From assembly GCA_028283245.1 (NCBI GenBank), contig JAPYNU010000093.1, positions 1 through 46,116 on the forward strand: DNA of 46,116 nucleotides, in the 5' to 3' direction. Made by a program: the position numbers and the translations under genes. Below, in pieces: positions 1,085-44,584 of the stretch. Each line of letters starts with the position of its first letter. Position 1 is the first letter of the stretch. This stretch comes from Candidatus Aldehydirespirator catecholifindens (GTDB taxonomy: Bacteria; Actinomycetota; Acidimicrobiia; Acidimicrobiales; Aldehydirespiratoraceae). The notes under the pieces are model-generated. The model was not told the origin of the DNA. It did not search any database and saw nothing but the letters and a program-made list of their open reading frames with translations.

Positions 1085-3709
1085 TCAGCCGACGCTGCCC
1101 TCCATTTGGAGTTCGATCAGACGACTCCACTCCACCGCATATTCCATCGGCAGAGTGCGGGTGACCGGCTCAATGAAGCCGTTGACTATCAAACCCATGG
1201 CCTGCTCTTCGGTGAGGCCACGACTCTGCAAATAAAACAGTTGATCGTCAGCCACTTTAGAAACAGTGGCCTCATGGCCGATCACAGCGTCGCCAGAGCC
1301 GACTTCCATATAGGGATAAGTGTCAGAGATCGAATCGCCGTCAAGGATCAGCGCATCGCATTGCACATGGCTCTTGCAGCCATATGCATCATCTTCAACA
1401 CGCACCAAGCCCCGATAGGAGGTGCGCCCACCGCCTGAGGAGATCGACTTCGACACGATCTTTGAGGTGGTTTCGGGCGCGGCGTGAGTCATCTTGGCAC
1501 CAGTGTCTTGGTGCTGACCCGGCCCTCCGTAAGCCACCGACAGCACCTCACCAGACGCTTTGGGCCCCACCATCACCACCGCCGGATACTTCATCGTCAG
1601 CCTGGAGTTGTGAACGATGAATCCCTCAGACACGAAGTTGCCGGTGCCTTCGACTTCGATGTCCCAAGTGGGCACAACATCGGTCTCGGAACTCACGTCA
1701 ACATCGCGCACTTCTACGCTGGACGGCAACTCGATCTGTGACCGGCCCACTCGCCGGAAATAGCGTAGAGTTGCAGCTGGTTGATGAGCTGCTGAGTCAC
1801 GCAGTTCAGGTGAAACCAACGGAAGCAGCCTCTCATCGGCCACAAAATCCAAACGGTGCGAACCGCGTGCGGTAGAGGTGTAGCCGAGGATTTGCACTCT
1901 TCGCTCACCCTCAAACTCTGTGTGAAGTCGAGATTGGATGCCGAGACTAGTGAGAACGTCACCAACGTCTGTGAGCAATTCAGGGTTGACTGACTTGATG
2001 GAGAAACCGCGTCTGCCTGCAGGGGCGCAACCGTCGGAGTCTAGATAGCCAGCCACAAATGACAGCCGCTGCGACTCGGGCAGGTTAAGCACCCAGGACG
2101 GCACCCGCTTGCTGTGAGCGCCAGTCACAAAGCCATTGCCCTCTAGTAGATAGGCAAGATCAACGCTGTTCCAAGTCAAAGTCACGCCGTCAGCGCGCTC
2201 GGTAGGCGCAGAGTCTGGCATGATCCGCTTCATCACCTCAATCAAGCGGTGACGGGCCCGGTCCTGCTGGGGGACGGAAAAAACTACTTTGGCCCAACGG
2301 TGTCCACCTGAATCCGCAGCAACCGAATCAATGGAGCCGTCACCGACGAAAAGGCCGAACAGCCACATGAGATCGTCGGTGGTGGTCTCGCCCACCACGA
2401 GACGAGTCGGTCGCTGACGCTCAGCAACGAAGCTCTCGCTGTACTGATTGCTGCTGTTGAACACTGTGGCCGTATCGGGCAAATCCAGTTTGTGAGACTC
2501 GCCGTAGTCAAGACTGGAAATAGGCACAATGGCCTTCTTCAGATGGTCGGCGCGAACGTAGGTTAGGCGGTATCGACCCAGTTTCTTGGGCTGTGAGGCA
2601 TCATAGGCGTAGGAATAAAAGGGATGATTGTCGGTCACCCGCAGCCGACGAGAGCCCTGTCGCACGTCTCTAACCGGCTGTTCGCCGGAGTAGCGCTTGG
2701 CTGTGACCCGCCGCCAGCACAGCGAACCGACGGCCTCGTCGTAGGACAGCACTTCATCGCCAGGCATGACCAGCTCAATCGGCTTGGTGCCGCCTGGAGT
2801 AGTCACCCGCGAGCCCTCGGCTAAGCAGCCAATGTTGCCGTCGATCCATTCCATGTGGCCTTCGGCTTCGACCCGGGCGCGTTTGGTGACAAGGTTGTAG
2901 ACGTTGTCAGACCAGTTCTGGATAGTGGTGTAAGTCACCCGAGCCGAACGTCCGACCACGATCTCCACCACCGCTGAATGCAACGAGTCGGTGGAATAAG
3001 TGGGTGCTGAGCAGCCCTCAATGTAGTGAACTTTGGAGCCCTCATCAGCGATGATCAAGGTGCGCTCAAACTGGCCCATGTTCTCGGCGTTGATGCGGAA
3101 ATAAGCCTGAAGAGGCGCTTCGACCTCCACGCCGGGCGGAATATAGATAAACGACCCTCCCGACCACACAGCCGAGTTCAGCGCCGAGAACTTGTTGTCA
3201 TTCGGCGGGATTACCGTGCCGAAATAGCGCTTCACCAACTCTGGGTATTCACGCAACGCAGTGTCCATATCGCAAAACAGCACCCCGAGCGCTTCAAGGT
3301 CTTCACGGTTGCGGTGATACACGACCTCGCTCTCATACTGAGCGGTCACACCGGCGAGGTATTTGCGCTCAGCTTCTGGGATGCCGAGACGCTCATAGGT
3401 GTTCTTGATCGACTCGGGCACCATGTCCCAGTCGTTGGCAAGAGTGTCAGTCGGCTTGATGTAGTAGTAGATATTGTCGAAGTTGATGCCGCTGGTGTCA
3501 CCACCCCAGGCGGGACGTGGACGACGCTCGAAACGACGATGCGACTTGAGGCGGAAGTCCAGCATCCACTGAGGCTCGCCCTTGAGCCACGACATCTCGC
3601 TGATGATGTTGTCGTTGAGACCCTTCTTGGGTTTGAAGACGTAGTCCTCCTCATCGCTCCAGCCCAGTTGGTAACGACTGAGATCGACACCGATATCCGC
3701 TGTGGTCAT
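1085..3709 (-). CDS. sufB: Fe-S cluster assembly scaffold SufB with in-frame intein
   Basis: SufB is the core scaffold subunit of the SufBCD complex, which builds iron-sulfur clusters in the cytoplasm. The 874-residue product has two extein parts, residues 1-294 and 702-874, joining to about 467 residues, the usual SufB size. Family landmarks include YYYIKPTD, FIYIPPGVEVEAPLQAYFRI, IADEGSKVHYIEGCSAP and the C-terminal VSKVADDQLFYLQSRGL. The intein sits between DGNIG and SRLTMKYP, the conserved insertion point also used in mycobacterial SufB. I start at the ATG at 3707-3709 because AGGAGG lies seven bases upstream; a longer frame to 3796 has no support. A gamma-carbonic-anhydrase-like gene lies 37 bp upstream. 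No sufC, sufD, sufS or sufU is adjacent: the next genes downstream are pseudogenes. Function requires splicing, after which the extein join restores DGNIG-SRLT. Confidence 0.95.
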   Translation of the reverse strand: MTTADIGVDLSRYQLGWSDEEDYVFKPKKGLNDNIISEMSWLKGEPQWMLDFRLKSHRRFERRPRPAWGGDTSGINFDNIYYYIKPTDTLANDWDMVPESIKNTYERLGIPEAERKYLAGVTAQYESEVVYHRNREDLEALGVLFCDMDTALREYPELVKRYFGTVIPPNDNKFSALNSAVWSGGSFIYIPPGVEVEAPLQAYFRINAENMGQFERTLIIADEGSKVHYIEGCSAPTYSTDSLHSAVVEIVVGRSARVTYTTIQNWSDNVYNLVTKRARVEAEGHMEWIDGNIGCLAEGSRVTTPGGTKPIELVMPGDEVLSYDEAVGSLCWRRVTAKRYSGEQPVRDVRQGSRRLRVTDNHPFYSYAYDASQPKKLGRYRLTYVRADHLKKAIVPISSLDYGESHKLDLPDTATVFNSSNQYSESFVAERQRPTRLVVGETTTDDLMWLFGLFVGDGSIDSVAADSGGHRWAKVVFSVPQQDRARHRLIEVMKRIMPDSAPTERADGVTLTWNSVDLAYLLEGNGFVTGAHSKRVPSWVLNLPESQRLSFVAGYLDSDGCAPAGRRGFSIKSVNPELLTDVGDVLTSLGIQSRLHTEFEGERRVQILGYTSTARGSHRLDFVADERLLPLVSPELRDSAAHQPAATLRYFRRVGRSQIELPSSVEVRDVDVSSETDVVPTWDIEVEGTGNFVSEGFIVHNSRLTMKYPAVVMVGPKASGEVLSVAYGGPGQHQDTGAKMTHAAPETTSKIVSKSISSGGGRTSYRGLVRVEDDAYGCKSHVQCDALILDGDSISDTYPYMEVGSGDAVIGHEATVSKVADDQLFYLQSRGLTEEQAMGLIVNGFIEPVTRTLPMEYAVEWSRLIELQMEGSVG
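1607..2827 (-). other. SufB intein (407 aa) with LAGLIDADG homing endonuclease
   Basis: The element runs from Cys295 to Asn701 of the host protein. Splicing block A is CLAEGSRVTTPGGTKPIELV with the nucleophile Cys1. Block B holds VTDNHPFYSY. The two LAGLIDADG helices are LFGLFVGDGSID (about 450-461) and FVAGYLDSDGCA (551-562), each with its catalytic acidic residue. The C-terminal block contains TWDIEVEGTGNFVSEG and ends in His700-Asn701, followed by Ser702 as the +1 nucleophile. All residues needed for splicing are present, and both endonuclease motifs look intact, so it may still be mobile. In the DNA the whole element is in frame with no stops. Confidence 0.93.
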
Positions 3710-3746
3710 GTGTAGACCTCCTATATGTGCGACAAGTTGAAATCTA

Positions 3747-4265
3747 TCAGTCGATGCGGCGCATTTCGGCGCGATAACGGTGACCGCGTGCCACATACAT
3801 ATCCGCGTTGGCCTGATTGTGGCCTTCAGTCAGAACATCCTCACGGATGCGTGCCGGAGTGCCCAGCGCCATAGCGCCCGGCGGCACCACCGTGTCGGTA
3901 GTCACCATGGCGTTGGCACCAACCAAAGCATGAGGGCCGATCTGGGCTCTGTGGATCACTACCGCACCCACACCAATGAGCGAACCATCATGCACGGTGC
4001 AGCCCTCCAGATGCGCCAAATGCCCGATAGTGCAGCTCTCACCAACAATGGTGGGCAACTCGGGCGCGCAATGGATCACTGCTGCGTCTTGGACATTGCT
4101 GCGAGCGCCGATGCGGATCCAGCCATCGTCGCCGCGCAGCACCGCATACGGCCAAACCGAAGAATCAGGTCCGAGCTCAACGTTGCCGATCACCACCGCA
4201 TCGGGATGAACGTATGCGCTGGGATCAATGAGCGGCTCAATGTCACCCAAGGCGTATATGGCCAT
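3747..4265 (-). CDS. gamma-carbonic anhydrase-like left-handed beta-helix protein
   Basis: The 172-residue product is a hexapeptide-repeat (left-handed beta-helix) protein of the gamma-carbonic anhydrase/YrdA/PaaY type, starting DIEPLIDPSAYVHPDAVVIG and ending with the usual helical tail. In active enzymes three histidines bind the metal, two of them in a GHxxxxH arrangement. Here His65 (AVIHCAPELPTIVG) and His82 (TIGH) are kept, but the third position is Glu87 (HLEGC), with an extra His at 85. It may therefore bind metal differently or be a non-carbonic-anhydrase relative. It ends 37 bp before sufB and is probably co-transcribed with it; the flavin reductase gene ends 15 bp upstream. GAGGAT lies upstream of the ATG. 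Fold assignment is strong, catalytic activity uncertain. Confidence 0.85.
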   Translation of the reverse strand: MAIYALGDIEPLIDPSAYVHPDAVVIGNVELGPDSSVWPYAVLRGDDGWIRIGARSNVQDAAVIHCAPELPTIVGESCTIGHLAHLEGCTVHDGSLIGVGAVVIHRAQIGPHALVGANAMVTTDTVVPPGAMALGTPARIREDVLTEGHNQANADMYVARGHRYRAEMRRID

Positions 4266-4280
4266 CTACAACACCATCCT

Positions 4281-4811
4281 CTATGACTCCGTCAATGGTG
4301 CCACGCGGCCGTAGCCGCCCTTCACGAACACCAGCGGACCGTCGTTGCTAGAGCCACTTTCGCTGCCAGCGCTCAACGCCATCACCTCGCCGACCACGAT
4401 GTCGTGGTCACCTGCTGGGTGAACCGCGTTCAGGCGACAGTCAATCCACGCCAGACAGCCTTCAATCACTGGAGCGCCAGTGGCTTCCACTCTGATAGCG
4501 ACCCCAGCGAAACGATCTTGGCTCTGGCTAGCAAAGACAGCCGAAAGATCGGCTTGACGGTCGCTAAGCACGTTGACACAGAAACTGCCCGCGTGACGCA
4601 TCTTCTGCCATGAGTCTGAATCGTTTCCCGCACAAAACGACACCAGCGGCGGATCCAGCGACACGCTGTTGAAAGATCCGATGGTCAGCCCTTCGGGACC
4701 GTCTGGGCAAGCAGCGGTGACAACGGTCACACCTGTCGGGTAATGACCCAGAACCCTACGGAACTCACGCCCGTCAATGGCGCCAGAAGCTTGGTCATCA
4801 CCGCCTGTCAT
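4281..4811 (-). CDS. flavin reductase-like FMN-binding protein
   Basis: The product (176 residues from the ATG at 4809-4811) belongs to the flavin reductase/FMN-binding split-barrel family, the small component that reduces FMN or FAD with NAD(P)H for two-component monooxygenases. Landmarks are FRRVLGHYPTGVTVVTA, LTIGSFNSVSLDPPLVSFC, FCVNVLSDRQ and HDIVVGEV, in family order. Family members are usually 160-190 residues, so it appears complete. A longer frame to 5000 would overlap the divergent gene and add atypical sequence, so I reject it. The gene is first in a minus-strand run with the carbonic-anhydrase-like gene and sufB; only 34 bp separate its start from the divergent gene at 4846. No oxygenase partner is seen nearby. 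Confidence 0.88.
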   Translation of the reverse strand: MTGGDDQASGAIDGREFRRVLGHYPTGVTVVTAACPDGPEGLTIGSFNSVSLDPPLVSFCAGNDSDSWQKMRHAGSFCVNVLSDRQADLSAVFASQSQDRFAGVAIRVEATGAPVIEGCLAWIDCRLNAVHPAGDHDIVVGEVMALSAGSESGSSNDGPLVFVKGGYGRVAPLTES

Positions 4812-14838: not shown

Positions 14839-15873
14839 TCACGAAGCAAACTCCGCTACTTCGACACGAGTGCCTCTCTGAGCGCTGACTATTGCGGCTT
14901 CGAACACTTCGGTCACTGCCAACCCGACACGTCCGTCTGTCTCGATAGTGGCACTTCCTCGGATTGCAACTGCGAACTCAGCAATTTGTTCAACCAGCGG
15001 ATCATTGACCTCTAGATCCACTTCCTGCGGGGTGACTTCATCTCTGGCCTGGATCAGCAATCTGGTGCCATCGCCGCGATTGAAGGCTGCGGCTTGCGTG
15101 CCGTGAACAGTGACCTCCACTGTTGCTGGCAAGAAATGGCTGGTGAGCAGCGAAGCGACCGCTCCCGACTCAAACTCGAACAACAAACCTGTCGCGTGAT
15201 CCAAAGGCTGATCAGCCAAGACGCTGCGGCTCAATGCCGTGACCGCCACTATCGGGCCGATCAGATATTGATAGGTGTCGATCATGTGAACGCCGAGTCC
15301 GGTCATGGCACCCAGCGGTGTTTCAGTTTGATCAGCGCGCCAAGTAGCGGGATACCCCTTGGACACGTTGAACATTGACGAAGCGAGCAGCACCGTGCCG
15401 AGTTCGCCGTTTTGCACCATCTGACGAATGCGGCGATTGGCACCTTGGCGGCGGCGCTGATGGCCCACCATCAGCAGAGTGCCAGCACTATCGGCTGCAG
15501 CCACAGCACAGCGAGCTTGCTCAACGGTAAGAGTGAAAGGCTTTTCCACCAGCACATGTTTGCCTGCTGCTGCCGCTTCACAGATCTGTTCGGCATGGAC
15601 GCTATGCGGTGTCGCCAGAATCACACCCTCCACATCATCTGCCGTCAACAACTCTTTCAGCGAGGTCACGCTGCGACAGCCGAAGCGCTCGGCGAAACCT
15701 TCACGAGCCGATGCAGTGCGAGCATGACAAGCCACCACTTCGGCCGTCCCCGACCTTTCGACTGTGGAAGCCAGTTCTGCGCCCCACCAGCCAAGTCCTA
15801 CAAGCCCCAATCGAACCTTGTCACTCCCTCCGCTTGTTGCAGGGACGGTCTTTGTAATGCCGCTCGGATTCAC
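14839..15873 (-). CDS. Gfo/Idh/MocA-family oxidoreductase
   Basis: The 344-residue protein has an N-terminal Rossmann fold (VRLGLVGLGWWGAELASTV) and the family's EKPFTLTVEQA motif (HVLVEKPFT), whose Lys contributes to catalysis, then GHQRRRQGANRRIRQM and GLGVHMIDTYQYLIG, the His-containing active-site helix. Members oxidise or reduce sugars, inositols and related polyols with NAD(P). The GTG start overlaps the stop of the upstream dehydrogenase by four bases (GTGA), so the two are translationally coupled. Substrate cannot be read from the sequence; context is a catabolic gene run. Confidence 0.9.
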   Translation of the reverse strand: MNPSGITKTVPATSGGSDKVRLGLVGLGWWGAELASTVERSGTAEVVACHARTASAREGFAERFGCRSVTSLKELLTADDVEGVILATPHSVHAEQICEAAAAGKHVLVEKPFTLTVEQARCAVAAADSAGTLLMVGHQRRRQGANRRIRQMVQNGELGTVLLASSMFNVSKGYPATWRADQTETPLGAMTGLGVHMIDTYQYLIGPIVAVTALSRSVLADQPLDHATGLLFEFESGAVASLLTSHFLPATVEVTVHGTQAAAFNRGDGTRLLIQARDEVTPQEVDLEVNDPLVEQIAEFAVAIRGSATIETDGRVGLAVTEVFEAAIVSAQRGTRVEVAEFAS

Positions 15874-16760
15874 AGCGATGCCTGCTCAAGATGGCGCAGC
15901 AGTGCCGCAGCATCAAGCTCCCCAAAACCCTCTGCGACCGCCGCTCGGTAGTGTGGCAAAGCCGCTTTCAGTAGCGGAGTGGACGCTCCAACGAATCGAG
16001 CGTGATCAGCAATGAACTGAGCGTCCTTGAGGAGTATCGCCAAACGCGCCGAGGGGGGTTCATAGCTGTCGGCTGCCATCATCGGCCCTCTGATCTCAAA
16101 GATCCGCGATGATCCGATGCCAGCACCAATCACCTCCTGCACAATCTCGGGATCGAGTCCGCTGGCTGCTGCAAGCCGATGAGCTTCCGCTGTAGCGAGG
16201 GTATGAACCGCCACCAGCAGATTCGCCACGAATTTCATGCGCGAACCGTTGCCGAACTCACCGAGGTAGTAGGTACGTTGTCCCAGGTGCGCGAGTATCG
16301 GCTCAGCGACCGCGAACGCTTGCTTCTCCCCACTTGCGTAAACCACCAATGTGGCCTCAGCGGCTTGCAGGCCGGTACCACTGACAGGAGCGTCTAACAG
16401 CGCCGCACCAGCTGCTTCTAAAGTTGCTCTAGCTTGCTGCTTGGCTTCGATGGAAAAGGTGCTCATCTCGACCACAACTAGACCTTCTATAACCGCTGAG
16501 GTCAAAGCTTCACTCGTCTCGCTCAACGAATCCTCATTAGTCAAAGCCACCAGCACGATGTCAGCGGTGGAGGCGACCTCTCTCACGCTGGAAGCAGCCA
16601 CAATCCCGCAGGCACCTGCTCGGTCTGCTTGTATATCGAAGCCGATCACTTCATGTCCCGCAGCCTGCACATGGCGCGCATAGGCGCCACCCATCACGCC
16701 AAGCCCGACCACTCCGACAGTTAGTCCGGGATCGCCTATTCCGGGATCACTGGAAATCAT
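15870..16760 (-). CDS. NAD(P)-dependent beta-hydroxyacid dehydrogenase (HIBADH family)
   Basis: The 296-residue protein shows the dinucleotide-binding motif GVVGLGVMGGAYARHV, the substrate-binding DAPVSGTGLQAAEATL (family DAPVSGG), and GNGSRMKFVANLL with the catalytic Lys. This is the 3-hydroxyisobutyrate/tartronate-semialdehyde reductase family, which interconverts beta-hydroxyacids and semialdehydes. It is coupled to the Gfo/Idh gene downstream by a four-base overlap. The exact acid is unknown. Confidence 0.9.
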   Translation of the reverse strand: MISSDPGIGDPGLTVGVVGLGVMGGAYARHVQAAGHEVIGFDIQADRAGACGIVAASSVREVASTADIVLVALTNEDSLSETSEALTSAVIEGLVVVEMSTFSIEAKQQARATLEAAGAALLDAPVSGTGLQAAEATLVVYASGEKQAFAVAEPILAHLGQRTYYLGEFGNGSRMKFVANLLVAVHTLATAEAHRLAAASGLDPEIVQEVIGAGIGSSRIFEIRGPMMAADSYEPPSARLAILLKDAQFIADHARFVGASTPLLKAALPHYRAAVAEGFGELDAAALLRHLEQASL

Positions 16761-39521: not shown

Positions 39522-40856
39522 TTAATGCCAGAGCACGCTGATGGGTGCAGACCAGATCTTGTCGCTCGTGTTTGTGCTATTGCTGCGGATCTTGGTGATG
39601 TGGGCACCGGTGGTGAGCACCAAACCCAGAATGAACCTGTCCCCTACCTTTTCGGCGAGCCACTCAATGTGCTTGGCATCGCCGGGCCGGTGTCGGTTAG
39701 CCGATTTGACCTCAATCGCAATGATCCCACCTTCTGGAGTCTCAATCACGGCATCAATCTCATGGACACCCTTGTGGGTGCGGAGATGACTCAGCGCGTC
39801 TCGCATACCCAAAGCCTCTAGTTCGCATCGGAGCTGGTTAATCACGAAAGTCTCCAAAACCCTGCCGTAGAGGTCTCCGTTCAGCTTCAACCGGGCCAGC
39901 GGCACATCCATCGCTGCAATCAACAGCGCCGAATCGCTGAACAGCATCTTGGGAGACTTGGCGAGACTCGGCACATCCTCGCTGCTGAACGCTGGCACTT
40001 CAACGGTCACATCCATGTCAAGAAGAATGTGCCGGTAGTCCCGATGGGTTCCAGGGTTGACACCGGCATCTTTGCGCAGGCTCCCGTCCTCAGGCGAACG
40101 AGCTGTGTGTAAGGCTGAGGCTGCGAGGTATCTGCGAAAGTGTGAGGCTGAGCGCCGCGTCCCGAACAAGGGCAGATCTCGTCGCAGCAGAACGCTCAGA
40201 TAGTCGCTGCACCATTCCTGAGAGCGCGCCACCGAACCTTCTGGTGCACACGCCGGGAAGCCCCCGACTGCTGCCAAGTCAAGATACCCGAAAATATTGA
40301 ATGCCTGCTTTGGGGACACCGCTGGCGGATTCCCCGCTAACAACCCAGCAACTGTCGGGTTTGGATGCAGATCCGCTACCTGTACACCCCGTTCCCCGAT
40401 AGTCATCGGATTGAGCCAGCCAACGCCTTGCGCTTGGAGAGCACCGAGCCCACCCGAAGTAAGTTCCCTCATGTTCATCGGGTTGAGTCGGATAACCCCT
40501 GCCCGGCCGGTCAAAGCCTGAAACTCTGAGCGACCCCTTGGATCAGGAGAGCCAGTGAGGATGAACCGGCCGGGCCTGCGATCCCGGTCGACCGTGCGCT
40601 TGATCGCTCTAACAACCTCAGGCACCAGTTGCCACTCGTCCACCAGTAGCGATTCGTCATATAGAGCGAGAGCCGCCTCGGGGTCGTCATGAAACACGGT
40701 ACGAGTGGAAGCATCATCAAGAAAAGCGCTTGTGTTGGCCGCTCGCAGCGCAGTGGTGGTCTTGCCGACCCCTCTTGCGCCTGTGACCAGCACGACAGGA
40801 TTGAGCTGACAAGCACGCTCTAACTGCGCGTCCGCAAGGCGAGGTATGTAGTCCAA
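39522..40856 (-). CDS. AAA+ (AAA_14)/DUF4143 ATPase
   Basis: The 444-residue protein has Walker A VTGARGVGKTT, Walker B-like SLLVDEWQLVP, and FILTGSPDPRGR, the sensor region. The C-terminal DUF4143 part has a nuclease-like core: HKGVHEIDAVIETPEGGIIA and IEVKSANRHRPGD, where an Asp and Glu-x-Lys fit a PD-(D/E)xK-type site. The start is TTG 40854-40856 with GGAG five bases before. The family is widespread and its role is not established. Three 23-bp direct repeats lie directly upstream, as for a self-regulated gene. It diverges from the helicase operon, sharing 179 bp with it. A broken relative lies at 489-982. Confidence 0.88.
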   Translation of the reverse strand: MDYIPRLADAQLERACQLNPVVLVTGARGVGKTTTALRAANTSAFLDDASTRTVFHDDPEAALALYDESLLVDEWQLVPEVVRAIKRTVDRDRRPGRFILTGSPDPRGRSEFQALTGRAGVIRLNPMNMRELTSGGLGALQAQGVGWLNPMTIGERGVQVADLHPNPTVAGLLAGNPPAVSPKQAFNIFGYLDLAAVGGFPACAPEGSVARSQEWCSDYLSVLLRRDLPLFGTRRSASHFRRYLAASALHTARSPEDGSLRKDAGVNPGTHRDYRHILLDMDVTVEVPAFSSEDVPSLAKSPKMLFSDSALLIAAMDVPLARLKLNGDLYGRVLETFVINQLRCELEALGMRDALSHLRTHKGVHEIDAVIETPEGGIIAIEVKSANRHRPGDAKHIEWLAEKVGDRFILGLVLTTGAHITKIRSNSTNTSDKIWSAPISVLWH

Positions 40857-40864
40857 GAACTCCA

Positions 40865-40930
40865 GCGTAGCAGTATTTGAAGCCTTAGCATAGCAGTAGT
40901 TAGAGCTTTAGCATAGCAGCATTTGGAAAC
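40865..40930. repeat. three 23-bp direct repeats upstream of the AAA+/DUF4143 gene
   Basis: Units begin GCGTAGCAGTATTTGAAGCC (40865), GCATAGCAGTAGTTAGAGC (40888) and GCATAGCAGCATTTGG (40911), the last incomplete. The 23-base period places sites on one DNA face. They lie between the two divergent starts (40856 and 41036), so a bound protein could control both the ATPase and the helicase operon. Confidence 0.8.
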
Positions 40931-41035
40931 TATATCTGCCCATAACCAGCATCAACAAAGATCAGGACAGCCGTCGTAGACTTCACAAGACCGTAAGTTT
41001 TCGGCCCTGTGCAACGGCATAGGCAATGACCAATA

Positions 41036-43207
41036 ATGGCGAATCAGGTGATGACGGGTTTATCAAGCGATGAGCGGCTGGAGCTTCAGCAGTTGCGTCT
41101 CCGCGAGTGGGTCGGGCGATCAACAGCGCTCCCCGAGACCGATGAGACTGGCGGAGCGGATTCCTTGGAGCCTGACGGGTCAGAGGCGGCTTTTGCGCCT
41201 CTCGAATGGGAGATGACCCGTGGTGTTGAACTGCACTCATGGCAGAAATCTGCTCGTGACGCATGGTTCAGCGGGGGTCAAAGCGGAATCATCAAGGTCG
41301 TGACCGGCGCAGGCAAAACCATTGTCGCTTTGTCGATCATTGAACGCCTTCAGCGATCTGATCCTGAACTTCGTGTTGCGATTGTTGTGCCGACCATTGT
41401 GCTGATGAACCAGTGGCGTGATGCGATACTTGAGCATTCCAATCTCCCTGAGCAATCCGTCGGGCGTCTGGGGGGAGGCCAAGCCGATCACTTCAGTGAT
41501 GCGACTCGAATACTGATTGCTGTGCTTGCGTCGGCGCACAAGGAACTACCGCGGCTAGTGGATGAGGGCTTGTCGCAGCATTTGTTGCTTGTCGGAGACG
41601 AATGTCATCGTGTGGGAGCACCCAAGATGTCGCGGGTTCTCGACACGCGCAGGGCTTACAGCCTCGGCTTGTCTGCTACACCTGAGCGCTCCGAAGACGA
41701 TGCGACGGCAACCAACACAGCCTCTGAGCGGGCGGATAAGGGGCTCGGCTCAATCGTTTACGAAATGAGCTTCGCTCAGGCACTTGAACTTGAGGTTCTT
41801 CCACCTTTTGAGATTGAACATTTCGGGTTGTCGCTGAGCATCGATGAACGGCAGCAATACCACAAACTGTCCAAGTCGATCAGCGACGCTCGTAAAGAAC
41901 TCCGCAGCAGGTCGCCTACAGCGCGAAATAAGGGAGGCGGTGAGCCGCTGCTGGCTTGGGCGAGACGGGTAGCTGCCAGAGGCGGAGACCTCGCCAGACT
42001 TGCGTCTCGCTTTGTGAGTGACACGAGCCAACGCAAACAACTTCTATACAAGGCGCAGAGCAGAAGAAACGCAGTGCTGACTCTCGTGCAACAAACCCTT
42101 GAATCTCGTGATGACGCACGCATCATCTTGTTCCATGAGAGCATCAATGAAGTCATCGGAATTTTCGAACTTCTGACATCTGAAGGCGTGCCTGCTGTGA
42201 TGGAACACAGCCAACTGCCGAATGAGTTGCGTGAAACAAGCTTGGAGCTTTTTCGAAGCGGCATAGCTCAAGTTGTGGTATCGGCACGTTCGCTGATTGA
42301 GGGCTTCAACGTTCCCGAAGCTGATCTGGGCATAATCGTTGCGTCGTCTAGTTCGCCACGTCAGCGAATCCAGAGCATTGGCCGGGTGCTACGACGGCAC
42401 CTAGGCACCGAAGGAGATGAGAAGGCTTCGCGGATATGTGTTCTGTATGTCCGAGACACCGTTGACGAGGCGATTTATGAGCGTCAAGACTGGGACAAAC
42501 TGATCGGACTTAACCGTAATCGCTACTACGAATGGGATCTTCTAGAAGATACAGTGCTGCGTGATGGTCCGCCGCGTGCTGCTATCCCTGACGAGGGCGA
42601 TATTGATGTCACCGTGCTGAATCTTGGTGACGAGTGGCTTGGGCGTTACGACGGGGAAGAGTACTCATGCGACGGTCACGACAATGTGGTGACTCTCGAC
42701 GGACAGTTCGCGAATAATCCTCAAGGTGTCCCAGGGCTTATTCGCGAACTCAAGGGCAGACCTGGCCGATTCAAAGTGACACCTCGTCAGCATGTCATCT
42801 TGATGCGTATGCAAAACGACGACGGTACTTGGATCACGAAGTTCGGAGGTCGTCTGGAGCAACCGTTCGACTTTGATGCTGTGGCTCAGGCGGACCTCGT
42901 CGATGTGAGCGGATTGCATCCAGGCGATGAATATCTCGGCCCCCTCACACCGACTGCAGCACTCAAATTTCGCCAGCTCAGGGGAGGAGTCGTTGCAAAG
43001 AAGCGTCCAGGTGGTGAGAGTTTCGCCTCAGGCGATCAGGCGGTTCAGCTTGTTGAGGTTCTGCGACAGCTGGAGAAGAGCAACTGTCGGATATCGAAGT
43101 TCTTTGTCAACGAGCTTGGGCATGCTTTCTGGCGAGAGAAGGGCGAAGCGCGCTTCATAGCCGCAGATGCGGGCGGCCTGTTCTCTGATGATGAGTCTTC
43201 GTCATGA
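41036..43207 (+). CDS. SF2 helicase with a novel C-terminal bipartite module
   Basis: The 723-residue protein is a superfamily 2 helicase of the XPB/type III restriction-like group. Motifs: Q-like ELHSWQKSARDAW (65-77), I VTGAGKT (89-95), Ia VVPTIVLMNQW (117-127), II GDECHR (187-192), III LSATPER (212-218), V VVSARSLIEGFNVPEAD (414-430), VI QSIGRVLRR (446-454). After about residue 520 comes a module I do not recognise, with GDEWLG (531-536), a GRFKVTPRQ element (577-585), GDEYLGP (630-636) and KFFVNELGH (688-696). Related modules make up the two proteins encoded immediately downstream. No nuclease domain is seen. The next gene overlaps the stop by four bases (ATGA). The ATG at 41036 has no clear ribosome site; 41051 is an alternative. 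Confidence 0.9.
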   Translation: MANQVMTGLSSDERLELQQLRLREWVGRSTALPETDETGGADSLEPDGSEAAFAPLEWEMTRGVELHSWQKSARDAWFSGGQSGIIKVVTGAGKTIVALSIIERLQRSDPELRVAIVVPTIVLMNQWRDAILEHSNLPEQSVGRLGGGQADHFSDATRILIAVLASAHKELPRLVDEGLSQHLLLVGDECHRVGAPKMSRVLDTRRAYSLGLSATPERSEDDATATNTASERADKGLGSIVYEMSFAQALELEVLPPFEIEHFGLSLSIDERQQYHKLSKSISDARKELRSRSPTARNKGGGEPLLAWARRVAARGGDLARLASRFVSDTSQRKQLLYKAQSRRNAVLTLVQQTLESRDDARIILFHESINEVIGIFELLTSEGVPAVMEHSQLPNELRETSLELFRSGIAQVVVSARSLIEGFNVPEADLGIIVASSSSPRQRIQSIGRVLRRHLGTEGDEKASRICVLYVRDTVDEAIYERQDWDKLIGLNRNRYYEWDLLEDTVLRDGPPRAAIPDEGDIDVTVLNLGDEWLGRYDGEEYSCDGHDNVVTLDGQFANNPQGVPGLIRELKGRPGRFKVTPRQHVILMRMQNDDGTWITKFGGRLEQPFDFDAVAQADLVDVSGLHPGDEYLGPLTPTAALKFRQLRGGVVAKKRPGGESFASGDQAVQLVEVLRQLEKSNCRISKFFVNELGHAFWREKGEARFIAADAGGLFSDDESSS

Positions 43208-43902
43208 CCCGCTTTCAGGTCAATCGTGTCAAGCCGCAAGTATGGAATGGGCGCTACGCACGGATACCGGGTGATACCACCGTGATGCATGTGCATTTCG
43301 TTGACGGCAAGTGGCGTCCGGTCTGCATTTGGGAGTTGGATGGCGTAAAGGCTGTTTGTTCAATGGTTGACTCGAAGGATGCGATCGTTCTCGCTAAAGC
43401 TGTCAACAAGGCCAAGAAATTTCTAGGTGGAGGCCCGGGTGGGTCGTTTCTCATCAACGAGCGCTGTCAGATATTGGTGCCCGCCCCCGGCTCGAAAGAT
43501 TTCCGCCGAGCGATCGCGGGCACATGCTCTGGGCCGCTCCTGTTCGCGAACAGTTTAAAGGGTTACGGGACTTTCGATCTGGCGGACGACACTGGCTTGA
43601 AACTTGGTGATGTCTGGGATCGGCCGTACATTGGCATGATCCATCATTTGAGTAACAAAAATCAACTTTACTTCTGGAAGGTTGATGCTGATGGTGGCAC
43701 GAAAGTCCTTCCGCAAACTCAGGACACTGATCTGATTGCTGCACTCCGCCACCTCCGGCCATTTGGTGGTGTCAAATTTATAGCTGCCTACGGCGGTCTC
43801 ATCTTGACGAAAGTTCCAGTCGGGATAGGGGCAAAGATGATTTGGGAGCCTCGTTACGTCGGCCGCATTAACTTTGACGAGTGGTTTCAAAAGGAGAACT
43901 AA
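43204..43902 (+). CDS. uncharacterised protein 1 of the helicase operon
   Basis: I do not recognise this 232-residue protein. It has no membrane segment or signal peptide. It carries GGPGGSFLINE (76-86), LGDVWDRPYIG (134-144) and FGGVKFIAAYGG (187-198), at the same order and spacing as elements in the helicase C-terminus and in the next protein. It therefore looks like a free-standing copy of the helicase module. In the second half the NE signature has decayed (FIAAY). The start ATG overlaps the helicase stop and the next gene begins one base after its own stop, so the three should be made together, possibly as a complex. A role in recognising a nucleic acid or regulating the helicase is speculation. 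Confidence 0.85.
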   Translation: MTRFQVNRVKPQVWNGRYARIPGDTTVMHVHFVDGKWRPVCIWELDGVKAVCSMVDSKDAIVLAKAVNKAKKFLGGGPGGSFLINERCQILVPAPGSKDFRRAIAGTCSGPLLFANSLKGYGTFDLADDTGLKLGDVWDRPYIGMIHHLSNKNQLYFWKVDADGGTKVLPQTQDTDLIAALRHLRPFGGVKFIAAYGGLILTKVPVGIGAKMIWEPRYVGRINFDEWFQKEN

Positions 43903-43903
43903 G

Positions 43904-44584
43904 GTGGGCGACAGCCGATTTCCAGTGTTCAAGGGGAACTGTCCGAAGAATGTGAACAAAGATGCCAAGTACGTTGTCCGCACTGTTGACGGGCGTTTGG
44001 TGGTAGCACTTTCCTACTTGAGTTCGAATGGTGAACAGTGGCTCGCCACTAGCGAGTACCATCCAGGTCTTGTAGAAGTGGTTAACGCTGTCAAGGTGTC
44101 TATGGGTGCAGGTCCAAATGGCCCTTTCTACATCAATGAGTACGCTCAAGTCATAGTCCCGGTTGCTGACGGCACCTACTATTTCGCTGGCGACTATGAA
44201 GAATCTCTACGTTTTGAGTTTGAGGGAATAACACTCTCAGGTGAGGGCGTTGGCCTAGACGGGAGGCTTCTGTCGCCTGGCGACAACTGGGATGGGCCTC
44301 ATCCCGGGATCCCCTACATCCTGAAGGCTGGCGGTGGCGACATCTACTACAAGTCCGAACCCCGTCCCCATGTCATCAGGCAGGTCTTCTTGAGTTCGGT
44401 GGTTAGGCCGGTTGCGGCCCGTTCTCTAGCAGCCCGCATTCAGGCTGTGAAAGGTTCACAGGGCGGAAGGTTCTATATCAACGAATGGCGCGAAATGTTC
44501 GCTCCCGTCAACGAAGGCGGCGTATACAACTACGTCTACATCGGGCATCTAGACGACGATGAGCCCTGGTTCCCAAAACCGTAA
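43904..44584 (+). CDS. uncharacterised protein 2 of the helicase operon
   Basis: The product is 226 residues from GTG 43904-43906, which has AAGGAG seven bases upstream; the longer frame from 43874 overlaps the previous gene and lacks a ribosome site. It is a paralogue of protein 1. It has GPNGPFYINEYAQVIVPV (70-87), SPGDNWDGPHPGIPYIL (124-140) and GGRFYINEWREMFAPV (187-202). The two FYINE halves resemble each other, pointing to an internal duplication, and this copy is the best preserved of the set. Predicted soluble and cytoplasmic; ends PWFPKP. No catalytic motif is obvious. It closes the operon 74 bp before the converging TPR gene. Confidence 0.87.
   Translation: MGDSRFPVFKGNCPKNVNKDAKYVVRTVDGRLVVALSYLSSNGEQWLATSEYHPGLVEVVNAVKVSMGAGPNGPFYINEYAQVIVPVADGTYYFAGDYEESLRFEFEGITLSGEGVGLDGRLLSPGDNWDGPHPGIPYILKAGGGDIYYKSEPRPHVIRQVFLSSVVRPVAARSLAARIQAVKGSQGGRFYINEWREMFAPVNEGGVYNYVYIGHLDDDEPWFPKP

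Follow-up and report, generated by a model that had tools for sequence, protein, structure and literature searches.

We analysed a window of 46,116 nucleotides from contig JAPYNU010000093.1 of Candidatus Aldehydirespirator catecholifindens, in which positions 41036-44584 hold a helicase gene (H) followed by two small-protein genes (S1 and S2), together called the trio here. A preliminary description made from the letters alone had reported three open reading frames at this place, with the sequence elements that they share, and we find all of them where it put them. The genes overlap or abut as it said: the start of S1 overlaps the end of H by an ATGA (43204-43207), and the GTG of S2 lies one base past the S1 stop. 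The mechanical reading frame of S2 begins earlier, at a TTG (43874), and the GTG at 43904 is probably the true start because the starts in the family, a Shine-Dalgarno-like AAAGGAG and the numbering of the preliminary description agree on it (Table 1).

The three proteins and their repeated unit

The core of H is of the XPB type of superfamily 2 (SF2). Pfam assigns it ResIII (5e-24) and Helicase_C (1e-14), the helicase motifs GAGKT, DECH, SATP and QRIQSIGRVLRR are intact, and its best solved relative is archaeal XPB (phmmer E 3e-23 to RAD25/XPB, Foldseek E 1e-22). No nuclease domain was found in H with the Pfam, PADLOC and NCBIfam profiles. S1 and S2 match no family above cut-off in Pfam, NCBIfam, PADLOC or PHROGs. 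They are homologous to each other (BLASTP E 7e-9), and H compared with a single S1 or S2 stays near noise (E 0.12 and 0.024). The invariant residues of the small proteins are G, F, N, E, Q, V, P and W; because these form no obvious catalytic set, a binding or scaffold role seems indicated.

Table 1 Coordinates of the genes, units and start signal of the trio in the window.
Feature	Position	Strand	Basis
H, XPB-like SF2 helicase/translocase, 723 aa	41036..43207	+	Pfam, solved relatives, motifs
H two-RecA core, residues 61-484	41216..42487	+	Span of matches to other helicases
H C-terminal unit 1 (H_u1), residues 526-614	42611..42877	+	hhalign to S2_u2 4e-8 and S1_u2 3e-7; beta3-alpha-beta3
H C-terminal unit 2 (H_u2), residues 622-718	42899..43189	+	hhalign to H_u1 2e-6; beta3-alpha-beta3
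S1, two-unit small protein, 232 aa, basic, isoelectric point 9.5	43204..43902	+	Translation, no known family
S1 unit 1 (S1_u1), residues 12-120	43237..43563	+	hhalign to S2_u1 3e-18 and S2_u2 4e-7
S1 unit 2 (S1_u2), residues 130-232	43591..43899	+	hhalign to S2_u2 2.5e-13 and H_u1 3e-7
Shine-Dalgarno-like AAAGGAG ahead of S2	43890..43896	+	Seen in the sequence
S2, two-unit small protein, probable GTG start	43904..44584	+	Shine-Dalgarno-like site, orthologue starts, AlphaFold2 model
S2 unit 1 (S2_u1), residues 17-116 from TTG 43874	43922..44221	+	hhalign, structure
S2 unit 2 (S2_u2), residues 130-236 from TTG 43874	44261..44581	+	hhalign, structure

Each of the three proteins contains two tandem copies of one unit of about 90-110 residues, six in total. 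The preliminary description had recognised that the tail of H and both small proteins share one module, and this observation is real and stronger than it was stated. Family-profile comparisons with hhalign link most unit pairs: the values are in Table 1, the strongest being that of S1_u1 with S2_u1, and the few pairs with a weak direct match (such as S1_u2 with S2_u1, H_u2 with S2_u2 and H_u1 with S2_u1) are joined only through other pairs. As a control, 120 column-shuffled comparisons gave a best E of 0.015; real pairs, where strong, lie between 3e-18 and about 1e-6.

The ordered elements had been placed at F579, GD630 and F689 in H, at F82, GD135 and F192 in S1 and at 75, 126 and 190 in S2 counted from the GTG (85, 136 and 200 from the TTG). 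These starts, and the spacings of 51-53 and 57-64 that follow from them, hold on rechecking. What had to be corrected is the repeat itself: instead of one F-x-N-E / GD-x-W / F-x-N-E module, there are two tandem units of the form GD-x-W/Y ... helix ... GG-x-F-x-(I/V)-(N/T)-(E/P), the first GD-x-W of H (G531-W534) having been overlooked. The S1 element at 192 is a degenerate FIAAY in the window and FIVNP in most orthologues, and in most families basic residues stand at the ends of the unit helices.

The AlphaFold2 model of S2 in its 236-residue form shows two beta3-alpha-beta3 units (mean predicted local distance difference test score, pLDDT, 90; predicted template modelling score 0.86), and the model of the H tail shows the same order of elements in both of its units (pLDDT about 68-92). 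For these two proteins, therefore, the predicted folds are not unrelated, unrelated folds being what the preliminary description had named as evidence against a common module.

No confident match of S2 to a solved fold was obtained. The top 50 Foldseek matches in the PDB are clamps but weak (E 0.01 or higher, template modelling (TM) score 0.13-0.19), the top matches in the PDB and viral sets are enriched in PCNA, DnaN and 9-1-1 (E 0.01-0.6, TM about 0.2 or less), and the VIA Z is at most 2.8. Because these values are too weak, we do not claim a sliding-clamp fold for S2; nor do weak or missing matches make its fold new. As a long shot, the six homologous units, two from each protein, might together make a clamp-like ring of pseudo-sixfold symmetry that is tethered to the motor; the trio would then be an immune helicase with a heterotrimeric DNA clamp of its own, one that is independent of the known sliding clamps.

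Distribution, inheritance and gene neighbourhood

Relatives were collected in one scan of 84,980 genomes using two short peptide patterns only, which returned 80 loci. Seven bacterial phyla have the trio with its gene order unchanged, and haloarchaea have it in a changed order; the architecture thus recurs in both domains. Full-length relatives are found (NCBI names) in Acidimicrobiia (69%), HR32, Verrucomicrobiota, Acidobacteriota, Thermodesulfobacteriota, Planctomycetota, Pseudomonadota and Lentisphaerota. The order H-S1-S2 is present in nine bacterial genomes beyond that of the window (L046, L048 and L050-L056, with a short S1 in L052), and at L047 and L049 S2 begins after S1 and the contig then ends. 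At L049 (2545-3579), S1 also carries an additional C-terminal extension of about 100 residues.

Haloarchaeal H has one tail unit only and is accompanied by two two-unit proteins, and the profiles of these families match the bacterial ones (haloA with S1 2e-12, haloHC with the C-terminal part of H, H_C, 7e-9). In Natrinema, Halalkaliarchaeum, Halobaculum, L058, L063, L066 and L116 a tandem two-unit pair lies upstream of H. In the alternative layout (L041, L042, L057 and L059-L062) one two-unit protein adjoins H and the other adjoins an Mrr-like gene; most of these loci also have a DrmD-like SNF2 gene and encode a long protein that is uncharacterised.

The trio is rare and patchy. Among 396 sampled genomes of the window's phylum, no convincing match was seen beyond the window's own genome, and in the sampled phylum of genome G400 one of 297 genomes carries it. 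S1 matches in two loci of the same phylum (L003, L004) have weak E-values and were taken as chance.

Comparison of their distances shows that H, S1 and S2 co-vary (r 0.62-0.96, Mantel p <= 0.0005), and each small-protein family retains its own invariant residues across phyla. Both observations argue against S1 and S2 being degenerate duplicates of the tail with no joint function with H, which, for all their clear paralogy, we regard as very improbable. In the H tree the Gemmataceae protein nests among Acidobacteriota rows with 99-100% support, and the S2 tree agrees; the grouping of the Gemmataceae and Bryobacteraceae trios in both trees is evidence of transfer between phyla.

The preliminary description had asked whether such trios recur near defence genes, and they do so at six of the ten bacterial loci with enough flanking sequence (L048, L050, L052-L055). 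At L050 and L053 the trio comes straight after an HsdM/mad2-like methyltransferase, HsdS, HerA, a mad6-like kinase and uncharacterised proteins, and at L048 a mad6-like kinase is directly upstream. PglZ-BrxL directly precedes the trio at L052, as BrxL does at L054. At L055 a GajB-like UvrD protein is encoded upstream of the trio and a type IIG enzyme downstream of it. Among the haloarchaeal trios, DrmD-like SNF2 and Mrr_cat proteins are neighbours, and a prokaryotic Argonaute (pAgo) gene lies near the Natrinema trio. L048 and L052 are sisters in the H tree yet have different neighbours. The defence contexts therefore do not follow the H tree, and the trio was probably recruited beside defence genes more than once.

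This distribution bears on the possibility that the trio serves DNA repair, with an XPB-like helicase and DNA-binding accessory proteins acting together in excision repair or in restarting replication, and that it lies beside defence genes only through mobile islands. The closeness of the H core to archaeal XPB fits such a role, as do the copies that stand alone (the window, L046, L051 and L056). A repair complex is nevertheless hard to reconcile with the rarity of the trio, its passage between phyla and its repeated placement directly inside defence operons, and we consider it unlikely.

The haloarchaeal copies, which surfaced only through H searches, lie on plasmids. Together with the patchy distribution, this would suit a regulator, a counter-defence module or another mobile-element function, such as plasmid or element maintenance, instead of a defence effector. 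On the other hand, viral contigs yielded no relative in single-protein scans or in alignment scans with S1/S2 or H, and tblastn found no match of S1 or S2 in plasmids, or of the L053 S2 in plasmids and phages. Among the proteins scanned, no replication, partition or integrase gene was recognised next to the bacterial copies. We therefore give a mobile-element role a still lower probability than repair.

Several further observations concern the neighbourhoods. In the window, a divergent AAA_14/DUF4143 gene (39522-40856, minus strand; PADLOC candidate PDC-S01, 296 bits) lies ahead of H, and such a gene also flanks the trio at L046, the window's closest relative (15011-16210, plus strand). The gap before the helicase contains three imperfect 23-bp repeats, head-to-tail (40864-40932), whose 20-bp core has no further match in the window at three or fewer mismatches; they are a possible operator. 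Scans of base composition and for promoters and terminators added nothing informative. The MADS-like operon (L126 1-9615, L053 1-9968, L050 1-9821) includes five uncharacterised proteins of about 1377, 548, 361, 283 and 384 aa, common to Desulfobacteraceae and Acidobacteriaceae contigs. At L052 a 439-aa protein with a weak pAgo match (2e-14) is encoded at 3033-4352, just before PglZ-BrxL and the trio. A 272-aa fragment upstream of the L054 BrxL looked PglZ-like by eye and was set aside, having no Pfam match. Five haloarchaeal loci (L057, L059-L062) share a set of a DrmD-like SNF2 protein, a Cys-rich protein of about 1100 aa, a two-unit protein by H, and a protein of about 310 aa whose family carries a restriction-endonuclease annotation.

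Relation to known systems and proposed role

The preliminary description did not recognise the system, and searches with Pfam, PADLOC, NCBIfam and PHROGs profiles did not assign the trio to any that has been described. A literature search, mostly limited to open-access papers, provisionally found no description of it; nor does such a trio appear in those passages of the BREX landscape paper (PMC12839542) that a search on XPB and SF2 helicase reached.

The best-scoring named helicase cores for H are PbeA and TIGR04095 (dnd_restrict_1), at 201 and 160 bits. PbeA, of PbeABCD, joins an HKD endonuclease to a helicase and acts with PbeB-D (PMC10853773; PMC6459918), whereas H covers only positions 248-620 of the profile and lacks the HKD nuclease. 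For TIGR04095, H reaches 159.6 bits against a curated cut-off of 600. The nearest solved helicase is archaeal XPB (XPB-Bax1); H scores 67 bits against an NCBIfam equivalog cut-off of 610, its C-terminal domain is new, and no Bax1-like nuclease was seen with the trio.

The DrmB of DISARM belongs to the OB-CON-DUF1998 (HAR) proteins, its partner DrmA is YprA-like (PMC9142583; PMC12458937), and in DrmAB the separately encoded partner moves upon DNA loading (PMC9142583). By comparison, H is XPB-like and retains its own copy of the module, the separate module proteins number two, and neither S1 nor S2 has a Pfam match to the DUF1998 of DrmB. Genes of BREX or MADS-like operons immediately precede some trios, namely BrxL at L052 and L054 and a mad6-like kinase at L048, L050 and L053; the window trio has no such neighbours.

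Based on these results, we favour, with some confidence, a reading in which the three proteins work as a single defence-linked module that is horizontally mobile, S1 and S2 being detached copies of the H tail domain. Given how widely it recurs and how often it adjoins known anti-phage systems, the trio probably belongs to microbial immunity as a part that has not been described before, and its gene neighbourhood suggests an anti-phage function. Several points weigh against this. The six-of-ten figure stands without a matched random-gene baseline, and only 13 bacterial loci are known, the window included. The flanks scanned at L046, L051 and L056 show no clear defence neighbours, and the window copy stands alone: its flanking proteins (five searched in Pfam, three of them also in PADLOC and NCBIfam) include no core BREX or mad gene and no other recognised defence system. 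Co-variation is expected for any co-inherited operon, and the searches detected no nuclease among the three proteins.

If the three proteins do form such a defence-linked module, H would act as an XPB-like, ATP-driven DNA translocase, and S1 and S2 would most likely pair with each other and with the H tail through like-with-like contacts. The assembled units may then provide a platform, itself non-catalytic, for gripping or recognising nucleic acid by way of the unit helices and for controlling the motor; we propose this control by analogy with DISARM, where DrmB, encoded apart from DrmA, is believed to exert it on DrmA. Since the trio has no nuclease, damage to the invader would have to come either from blocking or remodelling its DNA or from handing that DNA over to nucleases or modification enzymes that the attached defence operon supplies.

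A module of this kind would add to prokaryotic immunity a mobile, cross-domain element with an unnamed domain that the libraries used here do not recognise. It would also account for the same three extra genes in unrelated defence operons, BREX and MADS-like, and would offer a clean test of the use that a helicase makes of detachable copies of its tail.
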